Positions 1 through 29,950 of a DNA stretch of 29,950 bases are shown one piece after another. Location: the IMG/VR virus record IMGVR_UViG_3300030419_003224, positions 7,383 to 37,332 of that record, one strand, 5' to 3'. The notes under the pieces were generated by a model. That model did no database searches. It was not told where the DNA came from and saw only the letters and a program-made list of their open reading frames with translations. The stretch is from a virus. Within the stretch, counting starts at the first letter, position 1, and every line of letters starts with the position of its first letter. A program made the translations under genes and the position numbers.

Positions 1-332
1 TAGTGTCTCTTCAAATCGTCATAACGTTTCTTAAAGACACGTTCTTCGGCATTCTCAGGGCGTTCAGTTGAAGGAGTTGCCTTACCATCTGAGCTTGCAA
101 TTTCTTCTGATGCTTCGGTGTCCTTTTGAACGGTTGCTGTCTCTGCTTTCTCTTTTTGTTCCCTATTAAATTTTGCTAATTCCCCTCTAGCAAACGCTTC
201 AGTTTCAGCATCGTCTGTTTCAGTACGATTTTTACTATAAAGTTTTACTTTTGGTTTCTTAACTAATTTAGATTTAGGAACTTCAACTTCAGTTTCTTGC
301 GAAACCTTAGTTTCGTTTTCTTTGTTTTCCAT
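1..332 (-). CDS. Scaffold-like head protein, N-terminal part
   Basis: The frame opens with ATG at 332 and stays open to the left edge, so only the first 110 residues are present. The visible part is highly charged and rich in Glu, Lys and Thr, apparently disordered, and ends with ERVFKKRYDDLKRH. That segment resembles the start of the coiled-coil region in scaffold/capsid-assembly proteins of marine phages, recognised from memory only. Position fits: it follows portal and head-region genes in the direction of transcription, where scaffold and major capsid genes are expected. A CCTTAAGAGGAAAAAAT stretch just upstream supplies a ribosome binding site. Without the rest, another acidic virion protein is possible. 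Confidence 0.6.
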   Translation of the reverse strand, partial: MENKENETKVSQETEVEVPKSKLVKKPKVKLYSKNRTETDDAETEAFARGELAKFNREQKEKAETATVQKDTEASEEIASSDGKATPSTERPENAEERVFKKRYDDLKRH

Positions 333-377
333 TATTTTTTCCTCTTAAGGTTGAGTGCCTTATGGATAAGGGTAGCT

Positions 378-929
378 CTAAACTTGTTCCATATTTTGTG
401 GGCTGGACATTAAACCTGCTGTTTCAGTAGGTTGTTCTGTACCAGGTGGCACATTTGTTTGTTGTTCCATTTGTTGGTCTTGTAATGATGTAACATCAGC
501 AATAAATGTATTTACTGCTTCTTGTACATCTTGACCTCCATATCTTTGCATAGCATATTCTGCTACAACAGATAATGGGAAAATTACATTAGGCTCATCA
601 GTTCCATAAGCGTCCATTACTTCTTTGAACTCTGGTATGATTTTTGCTAATGCAGTTTTAACAGATGGGGATAAGACAGATTGTAATGCTGCCTGATCCT
701 CATCGGTTAAACTCTTTGCCCGTTCTGCAAATTCTAATTCCATAGGAGTTGCATCGGGAAATTCTTCTTGTAAAGGATTACGTGGTACTTGAGTTTGAGT
801 ATTAGCAGGAGCAACCTGTTGAGGTTGTCCTTTTCCTAAAGCACTTAAGTCAGGTGCTGTAGGTATAATAGGTTTCTTATTTAATAAGCCTGTTGTTGTT
901 GCTGCTTCGCCTTTACTATTAATTGCCAT
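378..929 (-). CDS. Head-region protein of unknown function (183 aa)
   Basis: No family is recognised with certainty. The N-terminal 60 residues are Pro/Gln/Ala rich and low in complexity. Residues about 60-150 look folded and mostly helical (ELEFAERAKSLTDEDQ, FPLSVVAEYAMQRYGG). The C-terminus is again Gln/Pro rich. Its start codon overlaps the stop of the upstream acetyltransferase gene (TAATG at 931-927), indicating translational coupling. The position between portal-proximal genes and a scaffold-like gene suggests a virion or assembly role, which is inference. Confidence 0.75.
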   Translation of the reverse strand: MAINSKGEAATTTGLLNKKPIIPTAPDLSALGKGQPQQVAPANTQTQVPRNPLQEEFPDATPMELEFAERAKSLTDEDQAALQSVLSPSVKTALAKIIPEFKEVMDAYGTDEPNVIFPLSVVAEYAMQRYGGQDVQEAVNTFIADVTSLQDQQMEQQTNVPPGTEQPTETAGLMSSPQNMEQV

Positions 930-1396
930 TATTTATCCTTTAATTGTTCTTTTAATTGTTGATCATCTGAAATCCATTCTAAATCTGTATAGCTTTTTGT
1001 TAAATCCATTAAAAAAGTTTTTACATTATTTTCAACTAATTTCATATTATGATACTTTGTATATCTTTTATGCAATGAAGTATTTGCTGTCATTGAATAA
1101 ATTAATTCAATATTATATTTTTTTGCTAATTTAAATATTTCCGTAATACAGAGATTTAATCCTTTATGTATACTTTTTAGATTAGCAGTTTTATTTGCAA
1201 CAATCCATTCCATAAAACCAAATTTAGTCCCTGTACAACAATATAAACCACCAGCACATATAGGAATATTATTTTCTTCTACAATAATTCCATCAGGCGG
1301 TAAACATTTTTTTGGAACTATACCAAATTCATGTTGTTTCCACCAGTTAACTAAATAAGGATAGTCTTTATCCAGATTCCAGTTTCTAGCTTGCAT
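929..1396 (-). CDS. GNAT-family N-acetyltransferase-like protein
   Basis: This 155-residue protein has the layout of a short GNAT domain: an N-terminal helix (YPYLVNWWKQHEF), a first beta meander (DGIIVEENNIPICAGGLY), a central strand (GFMEWIVANKTA, about 82-93), a helical segment where the acetyl-CoA loop would be, and a late hydrophobic strand with YSMTANTSLHKRYTKYHNM, typical of beta5-helix4. The canonical Q/RxxGxG/A loop is not clear, so activity is uncertain. GNAT genes of this kind are frequent in head regions of marine phages; the substrate is unknown. It overlaps the upstream Hint gene by 11 nt and the downstream gene by 1 nt. Confidence 0.75.
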   Translation of the reverse strand: MQARNWNLDKDYPYLVNWWKQHEFGIVPKKCLPPDGIIVEENNIPICAGGLYCCTGTKFGFMEWIVANKTANLKSIHKGLNLCITEIFKLAKKYNIELIYSMTANTSLHKRYTKYHNMKLVENNVKTFLMDLTKSYTDLEWISDDQQLKEQLKDK

Positions 1397-2519
1397 TTAA
1401 TATTTTTTTATTCTTCTCGTTTAAAATAACTACGTTATCTCTCCAGCTATCAAAGTAAGTATCGCCTACTTCACGTAATTTATCTTTTTCTTCTACTTCA
1501 AAATAATCTGTAAATAAAATATTATTAATTAAAATTCTTCTTTTATCTGTTCCAAGTGTATAAACAACATGTTCATCATTACCTAAAGATTTACCATGTT
1601 TAGTATCTTTAACTTCTTTCCAAATACCTTCTTCATTTACCATATGCGTACCTGAAACTTTAATTCCTTTATAATCATATAAGTCGTTAATTAAAAATTT
1701 ACCTAAAGCAAAAACAAATCCACCAACTTTAATATTATCTTTTAAATCTATATCTATAATTGCTTTAGTTGTGTTATCCGACATTGTAATTTGTGTTTCT
1801 GGTGAAAAACATCCTACTATACCTCCAATTACACCTCCAATAACTCCACCTATAGGTCCACCAACTGCTGTTCCTATTGCTGCACCAGCACCCATTCCTT
1901 TTGCTTCCTTTTCTTTTGCTCCAATAACTCTACCTAAGCCATATCCAGCTGCTCCAGCTATTCCAACACCACCTAATGTACTTTGACCTATAGGCATTGA
2001 AGTAAATGTACTACTTTTTAAATTTAATGGAGTAATATTAGTAATTTTACCAGCATTTTTCCAAGCTGAATACCCTTGTAGTGCTAAATCAGCCCCTTTA
2101 AATAACATATCAGCTGTTTGCTTACGCTGTGCAAGTTTTTGTTGTTGCTCGATTAATTTATAAGCTCTATCTAATCCACCATCTTGTGATCCAGCCATTG
2201 GTTTCATACTCATAACCTTTTCTAAAGATGTCATTTCAGTAGATTCAGGAGTTATTGCTCCTGGAGTATAATCAATTGTTCGTCTTTCAGGTTCTTTTTG
2301 TACAAATTGTCCTGTTGTCTCATCAAATCTTACTTGTCCAGGAATTTCTCTTGTAATTTTTTCTGTTTGTTCAGTAATTGATGGCTCACTAACTAAATTT
2401 TCTTTCTTTTGACCTTCATAAGCTTCAAATTCTTGGGTATTAAGAGTAGCTTTTTGAGGTTTATCAACCTCTTGATACTCATATTGCCCTTGATCATTTA
2501 AAACTAATTGTGATGCCAT
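1386..2519 (-). CDS. Glycine-zipper virion protein with C-terminal Hint domain
   Basis: 377 residues in three parts. Residues 1-150 are polar and charged and probably extended. Residues about 180-236 are Gly/Ala rich and end in a glycine zipper (GxxxG repeats, 208-236), typical of membrane-inserting or pore-forming segments of ejected virion proteins. Immediately after it, Cys237 opens a Hint (hedgehog/intein) module to about residue 342: CFSPETQITM (block A), DIDLKDNIKVGG, VSGTHMV with His292 (block B-like), and RILINNILFTDYFE (block F-like). There is no terminal His-Asn plus Ser/Cys/Thr, so splicing is not expected; thioester-driven cleavage at Gly236/Cys237 would be. The ATG lies in TAATG with the stop of the overprinted gene upstream. 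The Hint assignment is from motif reading. Confidence 0.8.
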   Translation of the reverse strand: MASQLVLNDQGQYEYQEVDKPQKATLNTQEFEAYEGQKKENLVSEPSITEQTEKITREIPGQVRFDETTGQFVQKEPERRTIDYTPGAITPESTEMTSLEKVMSMKPMAGSQDGGLDRAYKLIEQQQKLAQRKQTADMLFKGADLALQGYSAWKNAGKITNITPLNLKSSTFTSMPIGQSTLGGVGIAGAAGYGLGRVIGAKEKEAKGMGAGAAIGTAVGGPIGGVIGGVIGGIVGCFSPETQITMSDNTTKAIIDIDLKDNIKVGGFVFALGKFLINDLYDYKGIKVSGTHMVNEEGIWKEVKDTKHGKSLGNDEHVVYTLGTDKRRILINNILFTDYFEVEEKDKLREVGDTYFDSWRDNVVILNEKNKKILNAS

Positions 2520-2731
2520 TATATTTTTTCCTTATTTCGTTTAATTGCCACCTCTAAGTTGAGGATCTGTCGCACTAAAGCCAGTTTCCCCTGGCATTGA
2601 TGCATTACCTGTACCGATGTTGCCACCTCCAGCTCCTGTTGGATCTGTTGGCGAAGCTCCTGAAGGTACTTGACCAGGTGATCCCATTTCTGCTTGTCCT
2701 CCAGCAGCGGCTGTATTGTTTTGATTTCCAT
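2519..2731 (-). CDS. Small helical protein overprinted on the portal gene's 3' end
   Basis: A 70-residue frame (MEIKTIQPLLEDKQKWDHL...) lies almost wholly inside the portal gene in another frame. The product looks genuine: regular helical heptads, balanced charge, and a middle part (QCQGKLALVRQILNLE) resembling small coiled proteins found in many phages. Its stop TAA shares bases with the next gene's ATG (TAATG at 2521-2517), as at other junctions of this operon, and a GGGG stretch precedes its ATG. The overlapped portal tail is low-complexity Gly/Pro/Ser/Thr, which would tolerate overprinting. It could still be a chance frame. Confidence 0.6.
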   Translation of the reverse strand: MEIKTIQPLLEDKQKWDHLVKYLQELRQQIQQELEVATSVQVMHQCQGKLALVRQILNLEVAIKRNKEKI

Positions 2732-4637
2732 TTGCTAACCCCATTATATGTGCATAGATCGCAGCTTTTTCTGGATCATTGATTAATTGATCTGGATCAA
2801 TGTCTAATGACTTAGCTATTTCTTTTAAGCAAGTATGCCATCTGACAAATGGTGCTAAAGAAGGATTAGATGCAGTTTGCATAAACGTCATCAACCTTTG
2901 TGAGCGTACTTCTTTTTGCATTAAAGAAGAAGTGCCTCGTGCTTTAACTTCCAAATCACCTTTTATTTTTGGAGTATCTTCATTAAATTGCATATTCCAA
3001 TGAAACAAGGATTCTCCTAGAGGTTTTAGTAAATAGTCATCAATATTTTTGATAACTGTTTTTATACTTAATGCTGCAGCTCCCATTAACATTGACATTC
3101 CTGCTGCAGTTCTTGTTGTTGATTGTACTCCTGTTGCTCCATGTGAGTATGAAGGAATACCTGTTGATTCATCTGCCAACTGTCTAAATTTATCAAACAT
3201 CATTAAATTTTCATTTGCTGTATTTGGAAACTTAACTCCATGTAATGCCTGACCTGGCTGACCACTTTGTCGTCTAAATATTTTACCAGGAAATACTTTC
3301 ATATCTTGACCTGGTACTAATAAAGTTTCATCAATATCAAAAACTAAATTTCCTGCTAATGCTAAATTATCAATTGCCATTCTAGCATGACCATTCATAA
3401 CTTGTTGTGAATCTTCCATATTTTCTGGAATACCTACTCCAAAAAACTGATATGGATTAACTTCATATGGAGAAACTAAATATGGTAATCTTGTTGGTGT
3501 AAATGGATTTTCAACCATTCGTAAAATATGCCCACCACAAATCCAAACATTAACACTAATAACTTCACTATCTGTCTCATATTTAATTCCATATTCATCA
3601 GCTACTTTCTTATCTAATAAACCCCAAAATTCTAAAACTTCATATCTATTTTTGTATAGCTGTGTAATATTTTCTCTGTCATAAAGTGAAGACTCATATC
3701 CTCTTGTTTGATAATTTGGTCCCATTTCAAGACAAGCTTTAATTGCTCCTTCTCTAAACATGGGTTTTCCAATTAAATTTTCTAATTGCTGCTTATTATA
3801 GGAATGCCTTTGAATAACATATTCACAATCTTTAATATTTGTTGCATTTGGATCTGGATAAAAATCCCAACATGAAACCGCCTCAATAGAAGGAGTTGAT
3901 TTTGTCTTTGCAACATAAATACTACTTTCATTTCCGTTTTCATCTGTAGCAGTATCGTAACTATGATATGTTTTAGTATCAGTAAATGGTCCTTTTAGAA
4001 TTCCTGTCCCTAATAATGCCATTTCAAAAAATACATGACGTAAAATTGTAATTGCTTGACTTTCTTCTAATTGATCATGTATAAGTTTTTCCATTTGTTC
4101 TGCAGCTAATCTTGCAGGTTCAATTTGTGGTTGACCTTGTGGTGCAGGACCTGTATCAAATCCTAATTCTTTATAGTCTTGAGCAATAGTTTGCATTAAA
4201 TCAGTTGCTGTTGCTCCAGGTTTTAATATTTGCCCATCTCCTTCAAACCCATAAATACTTTTAGTAATATCTTTTGCTGAAGGTTCTGTATCCTCACCAT
4301 TTGCTTTTGCAGTTTGCGGATTTAAATGGGCATAGTTATCACTATTCTCAGGTACCGTAGTTGGGGATACCCCAAGAGGAAATTTACCTTGAGAAAATAA
4401 GACTTCTATAATCTGTCCAAATGAAGCTAAAACTTTTGTTTTTGTGATTTTAACAAAAACTTTTGAGTTTTCATTAGCACGAAACATCATTTCAGGTCCA
4501 TATAGACCTCTATAGTTTCGGTAAGCCTTTAACCATCTTTTTTCGTCATATAATTTAGAAGTCTCAGATTGCTGAAACTTTTGTCTTATATAACCGACTA
4601 AAGGATTAACTTCCTCTGTATACGGTTTTTTAGCCAT
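2541..4637 (-). CDS. Portal protein
   Basis: This 698-residue protein forms the dodecameric ring at the head vertex through which DNA is packaged and ejected. Size, position after terL and the sequence style of large podovirus portals support the call: a Tyr/Arg/Trp-rich helical start (KRWLKAYRNYRGLYG), a clip/stem region with LPYLVSPYEVNPYQFFGVGIPENM, and the helical stretch IDNLALAGNLVFDIDE. The C-terminal 60 residues (about 636-698) are Gly/Ala/Pro/Thr low complexity, unlike the rest, and coincide with the overprinted gene at 2519-2731. The start has only a weak upstream purine stretch. Confidence 0.88.
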   Translation of the reverse strand: MAKKPYTEEVNPLVGYIRQKFQQSETSKLYDEKRWLKAYRNYRGLYGPEMMFRANENSKVFVKITKTKVLASFGQIIEVLFSQGKFPLGVSPTTVPENSDNYAHLNPQTAKANGEDTEPSAKDITKSIYGFEGDGQILKPGATATDLMQTIAQDYKELGFDTGPAPQGQPQIEPARLAAEQMEKLIHDQLEESQAITILRHVFFEMALLGTGILKGPFTDTKTYHSYDTATDENGNESSIYVAKTKSTPSIEAVSCWDFYPDPNATNIKDCEYVIQRHSYNKQQLENLIGKPMFREGAIKACLEMGPNYQTRGYESSLYDRENITQLYKNRYEVLEFWGLLDKKVADEYGIKYETDSEVISVNVWICGGHILRMVENPFTPTRLPYLVSPYEVNPYQFFGVGIPENMEDSQQVMNGHARMAIDNLALAGNLVFDIDETLLVPGQDMKVFPGKIFRRQSGQPGQALHGVKFPNTANENLMMFDKFRQLADESTGIPSYSHGATGVQSTTRTAAGMSMLMGAAALSIKTVIKNIDDYLLKPLGESLFHWNMQFNEDTPKIKGDLEVKARGTSSLMQKEVRSQRLMTFMQTASNPSLAPFVRWHTCLKEIAKSLDIDPDQLINDPEKAAIYAHIMGLANGNQNNTAAAGGQAEMGSPGQVPSGASPTDPTGAGGGNIGTGNASMPGETGFSATDPQLRGGN

Positions 4638-5911: not shown

Positions 5912-7549
5912 TCAGTATCCAAATATCCTATCTGCAGGTTTAAATTGAGGATGCATAGGTCTACTAAATCGTTTTGCATAACTTGTATGCATTGGTCTAC
6001 TCATACATCCATAACGTAAAGCATCGTATGCATGATCTTCAGCATCTGTGTTTACATCCTCAGGATTATTTTCATCCAAAGGTAAAACAGGTAAAGTTCT
6101 AATTAAATTACGACAAGTTGAAAATACTCTAAGTCGTGGTTCTTTTTTCTTATCATCATTTAATTTTAATCTTTTATGAATTTCTAATTTTCCACTGATT
6201 CTACTTTTAGGTGTTCGATCAGATGGTCTCCAACGACAACCTACTTGAATCATTGTTTCTGCAATACTAGGTCCTATATCACCACGTTTTGCCCAAGTAC
6301 TTGCATCGAGTACGCCATATCTAATATACTCATCTTTTTCTAATTCTAAAATTTTTCTTGCAAAAACATCTGCTGTAATTTTTTTGGTATATAACTCTCT
6401 ATAAATCCATAAATTATTATCATAGTCAATAGCAAACCAAAGAACACAAGCAGGAGAAGAATAACCCCAGTCAGCAGAACGAAACCGCTGCCATCCTTTA
6501 GGTACTTCAAAAGGTTCGACAACATGCGTACTTTTATTAAATTCTGGAAATGCTGAATCTTCAAAGGCATCCCAATCTCCATCTAAAAATTGTTTACGTT
6601 GAACCTCAGGTAAAGATGCCAACATTGCATAATAATCATCTGTTTGCATTAGATAAGGATTATCTTGCAACTTAGCTGAAATAAAACGTCTTGTAATTGT
6701 TTTATTACCTGTTGGTGTATTTATATTTAATGTAAACGCTTTATTGGGTTCACTAGGATCTACAAACATTTCCTTAACCCATTGTGAACCTATGTTTCCT
6801 GGATTTCCTGTGGCTCGCATAAACACAGGTATACTTGGATCAACTGAACGTAATGATGATCTTAAAAAATTATAGATATCTGGCGAAGGATATTGTGGCA
6901 GTTCGTCTATGCCTATCCATGTGTAAGATTGCCCTTGGTAACGTAAAGCGTCTGTCATGTTCTCTGCGTACCCGAACTCTATCTTTGCTCCTGACGGGAA
7001 TCTCCACTCTTTTTCTTGCTCTCTCCATTTTGCTCCTGGAAATGCTCTGTTGTATAATCGTTGAGAATGCGTAATCAAATCTCTCAACTCAGGCATTGTT
7101 CTTCTAAGTAGTAGTGCTCGGTGGTGTGTCTTACTACAATAACGTAGAGGATCAACTAACATTGCGTAGGATTTACCTCCACCTCTTGCTCCACCGTAAA
7201 AAACCTCTCTTTCGGAAGATGCTAAGAAATCTGTTTGTGGACCTGAGTTAGGTTTAAAAACGACTTCTTGTTGTTTGATATGCTCCTGTATGTTTTTTGA
7301 AGCACTATCGATTACGTCTTGGGTTATTAATTGTTGCTCTTTTCCATCTAATGCTTTGTTAATGGTTAATAGTTTTCCTTTAACATTTTCTGCATGACGT
7401 TTAGCGGAACGAAGTGATTGTTCTGCCTTAGCAACTTTTTTACGTGTTCTTTCTAAAACGAGTTTAGCTGACTGCTTGGCTTTGTGCTTGACCTTTTTCT
7501 TTGGTTTCGGAGGCGGTATCTCTTTTAACTCTTTTTCTAAGTCCGACAT
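5912..7549 (-). CDS. terL: Terminase large subunit
   Basis: ATP-driven DNA packaging motor and headful/cos nuclease. The 545 residues hold a basic coiled-coil N-terminus (1-95), the Walker A-type loop GGARGGGKS (119-127), Walker B with catalytic Glu in WIGIDELPQY (211-220), a coupling segment ATGNPG (246-251), and an RNase H-like nuclease with its first Asp in SADWGYSSP (358-366), a middle Asp in VLDAST (413-418) and a last acidic cluster DAEDHAYDALRYG (502-514). All key residues are present. The long charged N-terminal extension is unusual compared with minimal TerL proteins. The gene overlaps the upstream HTH gene by 86 nt. Confidence 0.96.
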   Translation of the reverse strand: MSDLEKELKEIPPPKPKKKVKHKAKQSAKLVLERTRKKVAKAEQSLRSAKRHAENVKGKLLTINKALDGKEQQLITQDVIDSASKNIQEHIKQQEVVFKPNSGPQTDFLASSEREVFYGGARGGGKSYAMLVDPLRYCSKTHHRALLLRRTMPELRDLITHSQRLYNRAFPGAKWREQEKEWRFPSGAKIEFGYAENMTDALRYQGQSYTWIGIDELPQYPSPDIYNFLRSSLRSVDPSIPVFMRATGNPGNIGSQWVKEMFVDPSEPNKAFTLNINTPTGNKTITRRFISAKLQDNPYLMQTDDYYAMLASLPEVQRKQFLDGDWDAFEDSAFPEFNKSTHVVEPFEVPKGWQRFRSADWGYSSPACVLWFAIDYDNNLWIYRELYTKKITADVFARKILELEKDEYIRYGVLDASTWAKRGDIGPSIAETMIQVGCRWRPSDRTPKSRISGKLEIHKRLKLNDDKKKEPRLRVFSTCRNLIRTLPVLPLDENNPEDVNTDAEDHAYDALRYGCMSRPMHTSYAKRFSRPMHPQFKPADRIFGY

Positions 7550-26742: not shown

Positions 26743-26944
26743 ATTTTATAATTTTACTTAGTATCCATTTAATTCCACGTATAACATATCCTCTAATAAA
26801 TTTATTAAAAGCATATCGTGCTACTCTAACTACTACCAGAATTGGAGAAGCTAATACATCAAATATAATTAAAAGGATATCTACTGACATATCAATAATA
26901 TTATCACTTGTGGCTATTTTCTTTAGCCTTTCTTTAATTTGCAT
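26741..26944 (-). CDS. Holin-like membrane peptide (67 aa)
   Basis: One hydrophobic segment at about 20-41 (MSVDILLIIFDVLASPILVV) followed by a cationic amphipathic region (VARYAFNKFIRGYVIRGIKW, ILSKIIK). It overlaps the endolysin gene by 11 nt and follows it in the transcript, a typical lysis-cassette neighbour. A pinholin or membrane-perturbing peptide is the best guess; no holin family is recognised. Confidence 0.6.
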   Translation of the reverse strand: MQIKERLKKIATSDNIIDMSVDILLIIFDVLASPILVVVRVARYAFNKFIRGYVIRGIKWILSKIIK

Positions 26945-27431
26945 TAGAAAGTATTATATTATTATATCTATTTAATAGTATATCTGTATACTGTGGATTA
27001 GTAGCATACTTACTTAATGTTTTGAATTGATCTTCAATAGATTTATTTTTATTAACTGCAATTCTAAATTCTTTGTAGTATTTACTGTGAGTCATTAAAC
27101 TTAAAAAATCCCTAATACTATCTTCAATACTATTATATTTTTTTAACTTAACACCACCAGCAGTAAGTAAAAATTCTTCATTGCCAATAGCATGTCTTCC
27201 TGTATAATTTTTAGCTCGCTTGGCTGTATCAGCATTTTTAAATGTGCCATCAGCTGTTTCAACTGAAGCTATAGTAGTTACAAAAAGCGGATTAATCTTT
27301 CTTTCAAAAGAGTCAGGGCTATATTCTTGTTGTACCTGAATTACAATACTTGTAAATGTTTTTGCAAAACTATCTTGTGCAAGAGTACTGCTATTTAAAA
27401 GGAAGAAAAATATTAGGGGTAAATATCTCAC
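26934..27431 (-). CDS. Secreted glucosaminidase-type endolysin
   Basis: 165 residues. N-terminal Sec signal MRYLPLIFFFLLNSSTLAQD (cleavage probably after Ala18), then a glucosaminidase/FlgJ-like domain: PLFVTTIASVETADGTFKN with the candidate catalytic Glu58, NYTGRHAIGNEEFLL, KKYNSIEDSIRDFLSLMTHS, YYKEF and the typical end KYATNPQYTDILLNRYN. The signal peptide implies export by the host Sec system, with peptidoglycan degradation from the periplasm and less dependence on a large-hole holin. Gene ends overlap the holin-like gene and lie 8 nt from the large virion protein. Confidence 0.82.
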   Translation of the reverse strand: MRYLPLIFFFLLNSSTLAQDSFAKTFTSIVIQVQQEYSPDSFERKINPLFVTTIASVETADGTFKNADTAKRAKNYTGRHAIGNEEFLLTAGGVKLKKYNSIEDSIRDFLSLMTHSKYYKEFRIAVNKNKSIEDQFKTLSKYATNPQYTDILLNRYNNIILSNAN

Positions 27432-27439
27432 TATATATA

Positions 27440-29950
27440 TTAAGCTAAGGCTTTTTGTGTTTGCTCGTCTATTTTTTTAGTTAATTTAATTGGTTTGCTT
27501 AAGCTTTCTTTTTGTAATTTTTTTGGCAGCTTCATTTTGATAAGTTGTTCTTCCTTTGGCTCTTGACCTGGTGGTGGTCTATGATCTTTTAAATATTTTT
27601 TATATAATTCTAAATCATTATCTTGTAATTCTGGTGCATGATTAACTGCATGACTACTAATTACTATTGGTAATTCCCAGCTTATTACATCTTGTGACAC
27701 ATCCAGGAGGTCAGCGGTTCTTTGGTCTACCCAAATATACACTTCGTTATTTCTAATTTTATTCCAGTCTGGATGAAAGTTTGTTAAATACTCTTCAATA
27801 TAGTTAGCACCTTGACCCCTACCCTCATCGCTGTATAAAGTAGCATGTCCTGGAATATTTGTATCTTTAATTCTATCCCATAAAAATTGAAAGGATACTT
27901 TTTTTAATTTGTAGTTTGCATCTAATGCTCTTTGAAGACTCTGATCTAAATAATTATCTTCTTCTTCTTTAGTTGCTACCTGAGAAGTAATATCTATTCT
28001 CTCAAGTTCAACGTTATATTTATTTGCAATCTTTTCTAATTGTTTAAATACAATTTCATCATAGAATTTTTTAAGACCTTCTTTTTTTTCCTGATCCATA
28101 GCCTCATAACGATTAGCCTGTATCTGCCCATTAGTAATAGCAATACTATCTCTGCCATCCTTAACAGCCTTTCGAATCATTTCATTTAAAACTAACTCAA
28201 CAAATTTCTTGGAGTCTTTTAGGGGAAGATCTGGTACTATACCATATGCCTTTTGCATATATTCTTCTACTGTTGAGTACCTGCCATCAGAATCTGGATA
28301 TTTATCTGGTTGCCATAGAGCAAATTCTGTATTATCAGATTTTCTAAAAAGATATGTTATATTAGGATCCATCTCACCTATTGCTGGTGCATCTCCAGGT
28401 TCAATTGAATCAGCTTGAGTAAATTCAACACGTCTATATCCTTCTAGGGGATAGCCGTATTCTAGAGGCTTCTTCTCGTATTTATAAGTTATATTATGTT
28501 TCTTAAAATACTCTACTAATTTATCTCCTGGAACAATATCAAAGTCACTAAAGAATCCTTTGTCTTGACCCTCCTGTATCCACTGCGATTGTATCTCGTC
28601 TATTATTAGGGTGTTATCAAATGTTTTTTTTATATTTAATGCCCATTCATTATGCTCCATATCACCAGCATCTTCCATAGCATTTGGAACTAATGAAGGC
28701 TCATACCCAACCTGAACTCTAGCATGAGCAAAGGTGCCAGTTCCATGCTCTGTATCAAAGTGTGGTTCTTTATATAATTGTCCTACCTCACCTTTATCTT
28801 TTCCTATTTGAAAAACTATATGTTCTCCTGATCCTGATTTTCCTGCCCCTACTGAATAGTCCATGTACATAGGATTCATTTGATCTTTAGGAATAGAACG
28901 AACTGTCATAGTAGCAGCGATATCTTTATCTTTAACTAACTTTAATAATTCTTGTTTAGTAATAGATTCATTACCTTCTAACAATTCAGTGAGTCCAAGG
29001 TAATCCATTTCTTCTTTCGTAGTATTACCCTTAACTATACTTTTCCATTTACCTTTAGTATATTTATCTTGCTTCGCATTTGTAATAGCTTCAACAGCCC
29101 GTGAATAAAAATCAGGTTTACCTTCTTTAAGTGCCTTTGCAGTTTGCTTTTCAGTTTCTGTTAATGCACCGAACTCAGGTTTTTCTGGTACTAGTTCTTT
29201 GGTTTGTTCGGTTATGTCTTTAGTTTGTTTGGTTATGTCTTTAAATTTTAATTGTTCAGGTTTCCAAGTTCTACCTTTAGCGAGAGTTGTAAGATGTCTT
29301 AATTTTACTATAAAATTTTCGTATTCAGTGTCTGATTTGAAAAATCCTTTAGCATATTCACTTCCCAAATATATATCATCCCATGTATGCTCTTGCATTC
29401 CTTCATCTGTATCTAGATCCATACCTTCTTGATTTGTATGTGCATCAGTTAATCGTCTTAATTTAAAGTGCTCATTTTCTGTAAATACGACTTCTTCACC
29501 CGCTACTAGTTTTTTTATTTTTTTATCTAAAGGTTTTGTAATATTTCTATACAGACTAATGTCCTTTAAAAATTCTAGTTCTTTTTTATTAAGTTTATCT
29601 TCAGATGGAGCTAGATCTTCGGTTTGTTCGGCTATGTCTTTTGTAAGTATTGTAGTATCGGGAATATCAGGTTTCGAAAATCCTGGTGGAACTTTTTTTT
29701 CTTGAGGAGGTATTTCCAATCCTTTAGACTGTTCAGATGGTTCAGGAATTTTAAGACCTTCATTTTCTCCAAAACTTTTAGCCCAATCTTCTTGGGCAGG
29801 GAAAGTTTCTTGTTCAATTTTTGGAAGTTCTTCTCCACCATGGATAGTTGGTATATACTTTAAAGGCTCTTGATTTTTAGGTGTATCCTGAGAAAGTGAA
29901 GTAAAACCTAAAGCTGTTAATGCTCCTGTCCCATATGTTTGAATAAATTT
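27440..29950 (-). CDS. Large polyvalent/internal virion protein, C-terminal 836 residues
   Basis: The frame has no stop up to the right edge, so the true start lies outside; an apparent start at 29719 is only an internal TTG. Visible numbering counts from 29950. Residues about 260-340 carry a helical module (FYSRAVEAITNAK...EEMDYLGLTELL...ITKQELLKLV) and about 350-660 a domain with FAHARVQVGYE, LIIDEIQSQWIQEGQ (449-463) and IAITNGQIQANRY (603-615). These match domains found in 'polyvalent' phage proteins co-injected with DNA (cf. HWD...AHVRF, EEIQSDWHQ, AWTTG.QQ..RY). The function of the domain is unknown. Pro/Lys/Gln linkers separate the modules. Confidence 0.85.
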   Translation of the reverse strand, partial: KFIQTYGTGALTALGFTSLSQDTPKNQEPLKYIPTIHGGEELPKIEQETFPAQEDWAKSFGENEGLKIPEPSEQSKGLEIPPQEKKVPPGFSKPDIPDTTILTKDIAEQTEDLAPSEDKLNKKELEFLKDISLYRNITKPLDKKIKKLVAGEEVVFTENEHFKLRRLTDAHTNQEGMDLDTDEGMQEHTWDDIYLGSEYAKGFFKSDTEYENFIVKLRHLTTLAKGRTWKPEQLKFKDITKQTKDITEQTKELVPEKPEFGALTETEKQTAKALKEGKPDFYSRAVEAITNAKQDKYTKGKWKSIVKGNTTKEEMDYLGLTELLEGNESITKQELLKLVKDKDIAATMTVRSIPKDQMNPMYMDYSVGAGKSGSGEHIVFQIGKDKGEVGQLYKEPHFDTEHGTGTFAHARVQVGYEPSLVPNAMEDAGDMEHNEWALNIKKTFDNTLIIDEIQSQWIQEGQDKGFFSDFDIVPGDKLVEYFKKHNITYKYEKKPLEYGYPLEGYRRVEFTQADSIEPGDAPAIGEMDPNITYLFRKSDNTEFALWQPDKYPDSDGRYSTVEEYMQKAYGIVPDLPLKDSKKFVELVLNEMIRKAVKDGRDSIAITNGQIQANRYEAMDQEKKEGLKKFYDEIVFKQLEKIANKYNVELERIDITSQVATKEEEDNYLDQSLQRALDANYKLKKVSFQFLWDRIKDTNIPGHATLYSDEGRGQGANYIEEYLTNFHPDWNKIRNNEVYIWVDQRTADLLDVSQDVISWELPIVISSHAVNHAPELQDNDLELYKKYLKDHRPPPGQEPKEEQLIKMKLPKKLQKESLSKPIKLTKKIDEQTQKALA
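29186..29242 (-). repeat. Tandem 21-nt repeat in the large virion protein gene
   Basis: Encodes KDITKQT followed by KDITEQTKELVP. Related copies occur at 29606-29641 (KDIAEQTEDLAP) and at the very C-terminus, 27443-27478 (KKIDEQTQKALA). The repeats mark linker regions between modules. Confidence 0.6.

Follow-up and report, generated by a model that had tools for sequence, protein, structure and literature searches.

The protein encoded directly after the portal gene of the phage analysed here ends in a Hint domain. Together with the adjoining gene for a GNAT-fold protein, this domain forms a two-gene cassette that can be exchanged as a unit with an unrelated end-module, here called CT. We consider it fairly probable that the Hint end-module and its dedicated GNAT-fold partner make up a cassette carried on the C-termini of unrelated virion proteins, and that the Hint module would release these proteins by self-cleavage. 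The paired gene and the exchange of the cassette were more informative than the reading given in a first-pass annotation of this DNA, which described a Hint domain behind a glycine zipper and mentioned neither.

Source DNA and phage context

The window, meaning the whole stretch of 29,950 nucleotides that was analysed, covers positions 7,383 to 37,332 of the 37,332-base virus record IMGVR_UViG_3300030419_003224 (IMG/VR) and is phage DNA with a G+C content of 32.5%. Its portal protein showed 76.7% identity to the portal of Pelagibacter phage HTVC033P and 49.1% to the one of Puniceispirillum phage HMO-2011, and the phage was therefore classed as an HMO-2011-type podovirus. Phages of this type are reported to dominate in the ocean and to be widespread there (PMC9038755). 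The Hint-bearing gene is the first gene after the portal gene, which agrees with the virion-region location assigned earlier. Coordinates of all features are provided in Table 1. At the far end of the window, positions 26934-27431 encode a Glucosaminidase-domain protein (Pfam, 7.6e-11) with a signal-like N-terminus, probably a wall-degrading enzyme, and positions 27440-29719 encode a 759-residue protein with no Pfam match at E ≤ 0.01.

Table 1. Features of the Hint-GNAT region, in window coordinates
Feature	Position	Strand	Basis
Gene following the GNAT gene; context, outside the cassette	378..929	-	CT-bearing genes of L195 and, by eye, of HTVC033P are followed by a homologue
GNAT-fold partner, 155 aa; 11-nt overlap with the Hint ORF	929..1396	-	Structure model, neighbour counts
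Whole ORF, 377 aa, ATG start: virion-region body, glycine zipper and C-terminal Hint	1386..2519	-	ORF, alignments
C-terminal extension, a helix in the model	1389..1499	-	AlphaFold model, alignments
Hint core, aa 237-340; fold shared with inteins, BIL2, Vint and Hedgehog	1500..1811	-	Pfam family matches, AlphaFold model, structure alignment
Thr337-Asp338 where inteins have His-Asn; each residue in 94/94	1506..1511	-	Structure alignment, conservation
His292, block-B His; 94/94	1644..1646	-	Conservation
Cys237, Hint residue 1; Cys in 94/94 distinct sequences	1809..1811	-	Structure alignment, conservation
Glycine zipper, aa 177-236; part of the body, retained on end-module swap	1812..1991	-	GxxxG count, L034/L195 comparison
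Body, aa 1-176	1992..2519	-	Fast divergence among relatives
Portal gene, 5' neighbour of the Hint ORF	2541..4637	-	76.7% identity to the HTVC033P portal

Anatomy of the Hint-bearing protein

Twelve GxxxG pairs were counted between residues 177 and 236, above the average of 7.3 in shuffles of the segment (p = 0.0074), and 12 pairs in the best 60-residue stretch were reached by none of 5000 shuffles of the whole protein, so that the GxxxG-rich segment described earlier stands. Cys237 follows directly on the residues GGIVG, and after the Hint core only about 37 residues remain; this C-terminal extension is mostly absent from relatives of the L019/L081/L093 type. The full protein has a calculated mass of 41 kDa, and the halves on either side of Gly236-Cys237 come to 25.0 and 16.2 kDa, near the fragments of about 25 and 15 kDa that had been predicted. 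Matches of the window protein to LigA, C19orf12 and similar Pfam and NCBIfam entries were under the respective cut-offs and were disregarded.

Identification of the Hint domain

When used alone, the window protein failed to match any Hint entry of Pfam at E ≤ 1. A tblastn search with it against 50,697 phage records was empty, and so was one with its Hint part by itself at E ≤ 10. Family members were then scanned as a set of 38 (37 non-redundant relatives and the window protein). In Pfam at E ≤ 1, 34 of these matched Hom_end_hint (best 2.5e-7), 19 Hint, 15 Vint and 13 Hint_2; the isolated L002 module matched Hom_end_hint at 0.0027, and with the L056 protein all four entries (Hom_end_hint, Vint, Hint and Hint_2) were matched within the Pfam cut-offs. 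A family profile searched against PDB sequences at E ≤ 10 listed 13 entries, 11 of which were PI-SceI/VMA1, NEQ068 or Tetrahymena BIL2 and the remaining two proteasome chains; PI-SceI was at the top (0.0038), Nanoarchaeum NEQ068 next (0.0093) and BIL2 at 0.07. No good match to the module was present in PHROGs (best 1.8e-4).

The AlphaFold model of the module (pLDDT 87.6, pTM 0.81) was matched by Foldseek to BIL2, the DnaB and gp41-1 inteins and Vint at the top, with Hedgehog lower, and the nearest viral structure models were giant-virus and phage Hint proteins. Structure alignment by VIA-align gave Z scores of 13.6 to 10.2 among the 50 matches listed, and placed model residues 7..108 on residues 1..145 of MchDnaB-1, 1..440 of RecA and 1..454 of PI-SceI. 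Given that the aligned part of the model spans these inteins from first to last residue, Cys237 corresponds to residue 1 and Asp338 to the terminal Asn. The MchDnaB-1 structure title names N145, and the last residues of the RecA and PI-SceI inteins are the terminal Asn as well.

The C-terminal module of the window protein, then, has the Hint fold in the model and is a Hint domain beginning at Cys237; the block A Cys and Thr and the block B His are present in all 94 distinct sequences. It is not a splicing intein, because Asp338 falls on the position of the terminal Asn; the His-Asn pair and the +1 Cys, Ser or Thr are replaced by Thr337-Asp338-Tyr339 in 94/94. The C-terminal His-Asn that defines A-type BIL domains is likewise missing, and the definition of B-type BIL domains (all intein motifs except the C-terminal one) fits the module, with Ser or Ala at the block-B Thr; both definitions were taken from PMC7765530. 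The first-pass annotation was therefore right on the Hint domain, on blocks A, B and F and on the lack of the C-terminal His-Asn.

Within isolated-phage records, intein block A was the sole part of the module that was matched. This held for 25 of 25 records found by tblastn with the L027 module, 21 of them named terminase, helicase, RecA-like/DNA repair or portal, with the other four hypothetical, tRNA synthetase or unannotated, and for 9 of 9 Vibrio phage records found with the L091 module, seven of them named DNA helicase. The L071 module matched no phage record at E ≤ 0.1. A chance resemblance in block A was ruled out by the fold and the family profile.

Distribution and conservation

Three successive searches of IMG/VR returned 6, then 21, then 188 relatives of the module (80 kept). 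A scan of 84,980 bacterial and archaeal species, one genome per species, returned a single locus, in the Verrucomicrobia MAG TMED56. The module is one of a family found in many uncultivated phages related to phages of ocean bacteria.

Conservation was scored in 94 distinct sequences, consisting of the window and 93 others from 145 loci (several on one contig); three loci truncated ahead of the cysteine were excluded. Residues C237, F238, T242, H292, T337, D338, Y339 and F340 were identical in 94/94, an invariance due partly to selection given that FTDYF was among the search patterns and the cysteine was located by a CF pattern. A scan based on the GNAT gene, using neither pattern, found no Hint locus without TDYF. 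At residue 289, the usual position of the block-B Thr, Ser was found in 87 and Ala in 7 of the 94 sequences (Ser289 in the window), and the residue before the cysteine was Gly in 87/93 and Ser in 6/93. Identity to the window Hint reached down to 46%.

The paired GNAT-fold gene

Of 85 Hint contigs, 82 had a homologue of the partner gene downstream on the same strand; in most of them it overlaps the Hint ORF, and in T4-like types it lies about 1.2 kb further on. These 85 contigs comprised all 80 from the 188-match search (one via another locus) and five from the 21-relative search, from which L020, L021, L022, L024 and L027 were left out of the count. The three contigs without a partner end soon after the Hint, at 60 (L049), 609 (L091) and 719 (L026) bases. 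In the reverse search, 142 IMG/VR loci were matched and 80 kept, of which 78 had a Hint upstream; the remaining two lie at the very start of their contigs, from base 71 and from base 3. All five exceptions in the two directions are hence at contig ends, and the two contig sets overlap, with many contigs in common. In one T4-like type (L060:5419-6670), two genes separate the Hint protein from the GNAT, one Asp/Asn beta-hydroxylase-like (Pfam, 5.6e-10) and one short-chain dehydrogenase-like (1.1e-9).

The structure model of the partner (pLDDT 93.8) has the GNAT fold, and its alignment gave Z scores of 15.6 to 13.9 among the 50 matches listed, the best including the protein N-terminal acetyltransferases Ard1 and RimI. 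The motif [QR]xxGx[GA] forms the acyl-CoA pyrophosphate loop of GNATs and is present in E. coli RimI (QRQGLG) and SpeG (QGKGLA); it was found in 0 of 57 distinct partner sequences. A Tyr occupied the general-acid column in 36/36 aligned sequences. The loop was also absent from GNAT relatives in Pachyviridae phages (Cellulophaga, Tenacibaculum) and a Manatee Spring phage, among whose neighbouring proteins, as read, no Hint was seen; because these Hint-less relatives are without the loop too, its loss is not tied to the Hint. Distances between Hint modules and between their partners were correlated (n = 38, r = 0.55, 0/999 permutations as high), and between the L019 type and the window the Hint was 68% and the GNAT only 34% identical.

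Exchange of the cassette with the CT module

The DNA of contigs L034 and L195 was 93.4% identical over 2,877 bases covering portal, body and zipper. The similarity stops at L034 base 4316, a single codon ahead of the Hint cysteine (base 4320), and returns at L034 base 5178 (87.5% over 80 bases). Past the breakpoint L034 carries Hint and GNAT, and L195 the unrelated CT module. Comparison of L007 with the window gave identities of 81% for the portal, 33% over 73 residues for the body, 90% for the Hint, 92% for the GNAT and 59% for the next gene. The 94 distinct bodies fell into 15 clusters, and CT-bearing homologues were found in nine of these, the cluster of the window included. Hint and GNAT are thus a two-gene cassette, exchangeable as a unit with CT.

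Since the zipper stays in place when the Hint is swapped (L034 vs L195), it is part of the body and lies outside the cassette. In many relatives the cysteine is preceded by polyglycine or other linkers instead of a zipper. On both counts, the earlier proposal that the module serves to release a membrane-active zipper fragment was rejected as a general purpose.

After repeats of one contig were removed, 105 CT loci were counted: in 92 CT was fused to the body with neither Hint nor GNAT upstream, and 11 were cut by a contig end. In L078 (= L261), CT is a free ORF immediately after Hint and GNAT, and the L284 CT, called as free, belongs to a fused gene whose reading frame is broken. No CT-like gene was found in the record of the window itself, which is a weak negative.

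Several observations concern these end-modules and their carriers. CT (L182-L260, L261-L289; ICTELY...) frequently forms the C-terminal end-module of proteins in these phages and is also found on the VrlC of L293; two of its cysteines are invariant in three aligned sequences. In L269, L273 and L274 a canonical Hint end (VVHN or IVHN, then KGGGGG) directly precedes CT, as if releasing an end-piece. Tandem Hints occur in L056:850-2907, where a canonical Hint ending YNFNVSND..SYIAD.YVVHN stands directly before an FTDYF-type Hint, in L061, L064, L073, L083, L085, L095 and L100, and, with a few more intervening residues, in L059 and L080. L060:4059-5429 and its cluster of 28 bodies are glycine-rich proteins with the Hint at the end, which in our view resemble the polyglycine adhesins of T4-like phages.

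Split VrlC genes

VrlC is one CDS in the four isolates checked (HTVC008M, Mosig, S-SM1 and Klebsiella phage 0507-KN2-1). The VrlC body of L069 and L027 ends in Hint, GNAT follows, and the C-part is a separate ORF; in L027 other genes lie between Hint and GNAT. The gene is divided in the same way in L293, which carries a CT module (E = 6.8e-27) and lacks both Hint and GNAT. Among the best 80 of 557 C-part loci, 76 were one chain, one was cut by a contig end and three were split, namely L306 (Hint and GNAT), L293 (CT) and L372 (a cysteine-bearing tail that is CT-like by eye only, with no CT match at E ≤ 1). Because the split in L293 carries CT in place of Hint and GNAT, the split appears to serve in giving the end-module a free C-terminus.

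Proposed mechanism and alternatives

Self-cleavage at Gly236-Cys237 appears the likeliest activity of the module, judged from its residues and by analogy: Cys1, block-A Thr and block-B His, which make up the N-terminal half-site of inteins, are strictly conserved, Gly or Ser precedes the cysteine, and B-type BIL domains, which carry the splicing motifs minus the C-terminal one, can cleave at their N-terminus (PMC7765530). After folding or assembly, Cys237 would attack the carbonyl of Gly236 in an N-S acyl shift, and resolution of the thioester would free the 25-kDa virion protein from the 16-kDa Hint, as in B-type BIL domains. Less certainly, the GNAT-fold partner may act on the thioester, on its acceptor, or as a timing or chaperone factor. 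Several points run against cleavage: Ser or Ala takes the place of the block-B Thr, no significant Hint match is obtained with the window sequence by itself, and the slot is shared with CT, which has no known cleavage activity, so that what the two modules do there in common may be something other than cleavage. In the L056 type, a canonical VVHN-ending Hint lies two residues upstream of the FTDYF-type module, and a second cutter therefore looks redundant. Alternatively, the module would be, like CT, a payload or display end-piece in which the Hint fold has been reused for binding, with cleavage incidental or absent and the GNAT a cognate cofactor, chaperone or immunity-like partner. In favour of this, Hint and CT occupy the same slot, either an FTDYF-type Hint (L056 type) or CT (L269, L273, L274) can follow a canonical Hint much as toxin tips follow pre-toxin HINT domains, and the VrlC split gives either end-module a free C-terminus. 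The C-terminal intramolecular chaperones of phage fibres, removed by autoproteolysis according to PMC10579305, offer a further parallel. A pure binding domain would have no need of the full N-terminal catalytic set and the conserved Gly or Ser before the cysteine, and we hold this explanation to be a less probable one that still deserves weight.

The reciprocal pairing would also suit a Hint thioester that serves as acyl donor, from which the GNAT-fold partner would move the virion protein onto an amine of a virion protein or host molecule. The GNAT fold with its general-acid-column Tyr and without the acyl-CoA loop is in keeping with such a reaction, and a title in the reference list of PMC7664689 states that BIL domains are able to ligate in the absence of a side-chain nucleophile. 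The loop is missing from Hint-less GNAT relatives as well, CT-bearing alleles manage without a GNAT, and no conserved acceptor was found, which makes this reaction unlikely. The order body-Hint, GNAT, separate C-part in L069 and L027, against one chain in four isolates, had suggested that Hint and GNAT religate the split VrlC halves. The L293 split, with CT and without Hint or GNAT, is independent of both, and no VrlC-type C-part lies beside the window gene; religation was largely abandoned after the CT and C-part scans and is now highly improbable. An intein-like fold and horizontal movement (L007 vs window) would be expected of a dead intein remnant or selfish element without phage function, but catalytic residues invariant at the lowest identities in the family, the dedicated partner gene, and a unit that carries GNAT and no recognised homing nuclease make this very doubtful.

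Relation to known systems and significance

Hint domains, BIL domains and GNATs are individually already known. No publication on the Hint-GNAT pair or this Hint family was found in searches of open-licence full texts. Variable C-terminal tips of polymorphic toxins with pre-toxin HINT domains are exchanged together with a downstream partner gene. The phage cassette has this exchange in common with them; unlike in those toxins, no toxin domain was recognised in the phage module and the Hint itself is the tip. B-type BIL domains share the Hint fold, the intein motifs except the C-terminal one and the expected N-terminal cleavage, whereas the present module ends phage virion proteins, has an invariant FTDYF after block F and is paired with a GNAT. 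The closest or near-closest solved structures were BIL2 of Tetrahymena BUBL1 (6y75, 6tmm) and a Clostridium BIL (2lwy); titles of the BIL2 structures indicate an Asn at the end (N143A), where the phage module has Asp. Hedgehog Hog/Hint is likewise a C-terminal autoprocessing domain in which the first acyl shift alone is used (PMC7664689), but the partner of the phage module is a separate GNAT-fold protein. The phage intramolecular chaperones (PMC10579305) are also cleavable C-terminal ends of phage structural proteins, and differ in fold and chemistry, with the cut after a serine and not at a Hint cysteine.

Judged from these searches of open-licence full texts, the apparently new element is a paired Hint-GNAT cassette as an exchangeable virion-protein end. 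Phages have here domesticated a Hint domain as the terminal piece of structural proteins and linked it to a partner whose fold is that of an enzyme. The exchange between Hint and CT spans portal-adjacent proteins of podoviruses, glycine-rich T4-like phage proteins and the baseplate protein VrlC. If the Hint thioester were indeed an acyl donor, the pair would be a two-gene system of protein conjugation with a protein thioester in place of acyl-CoA. With the Hint-GNAT pair, the recipient of a Hint thioester becomes testable with two short genes.
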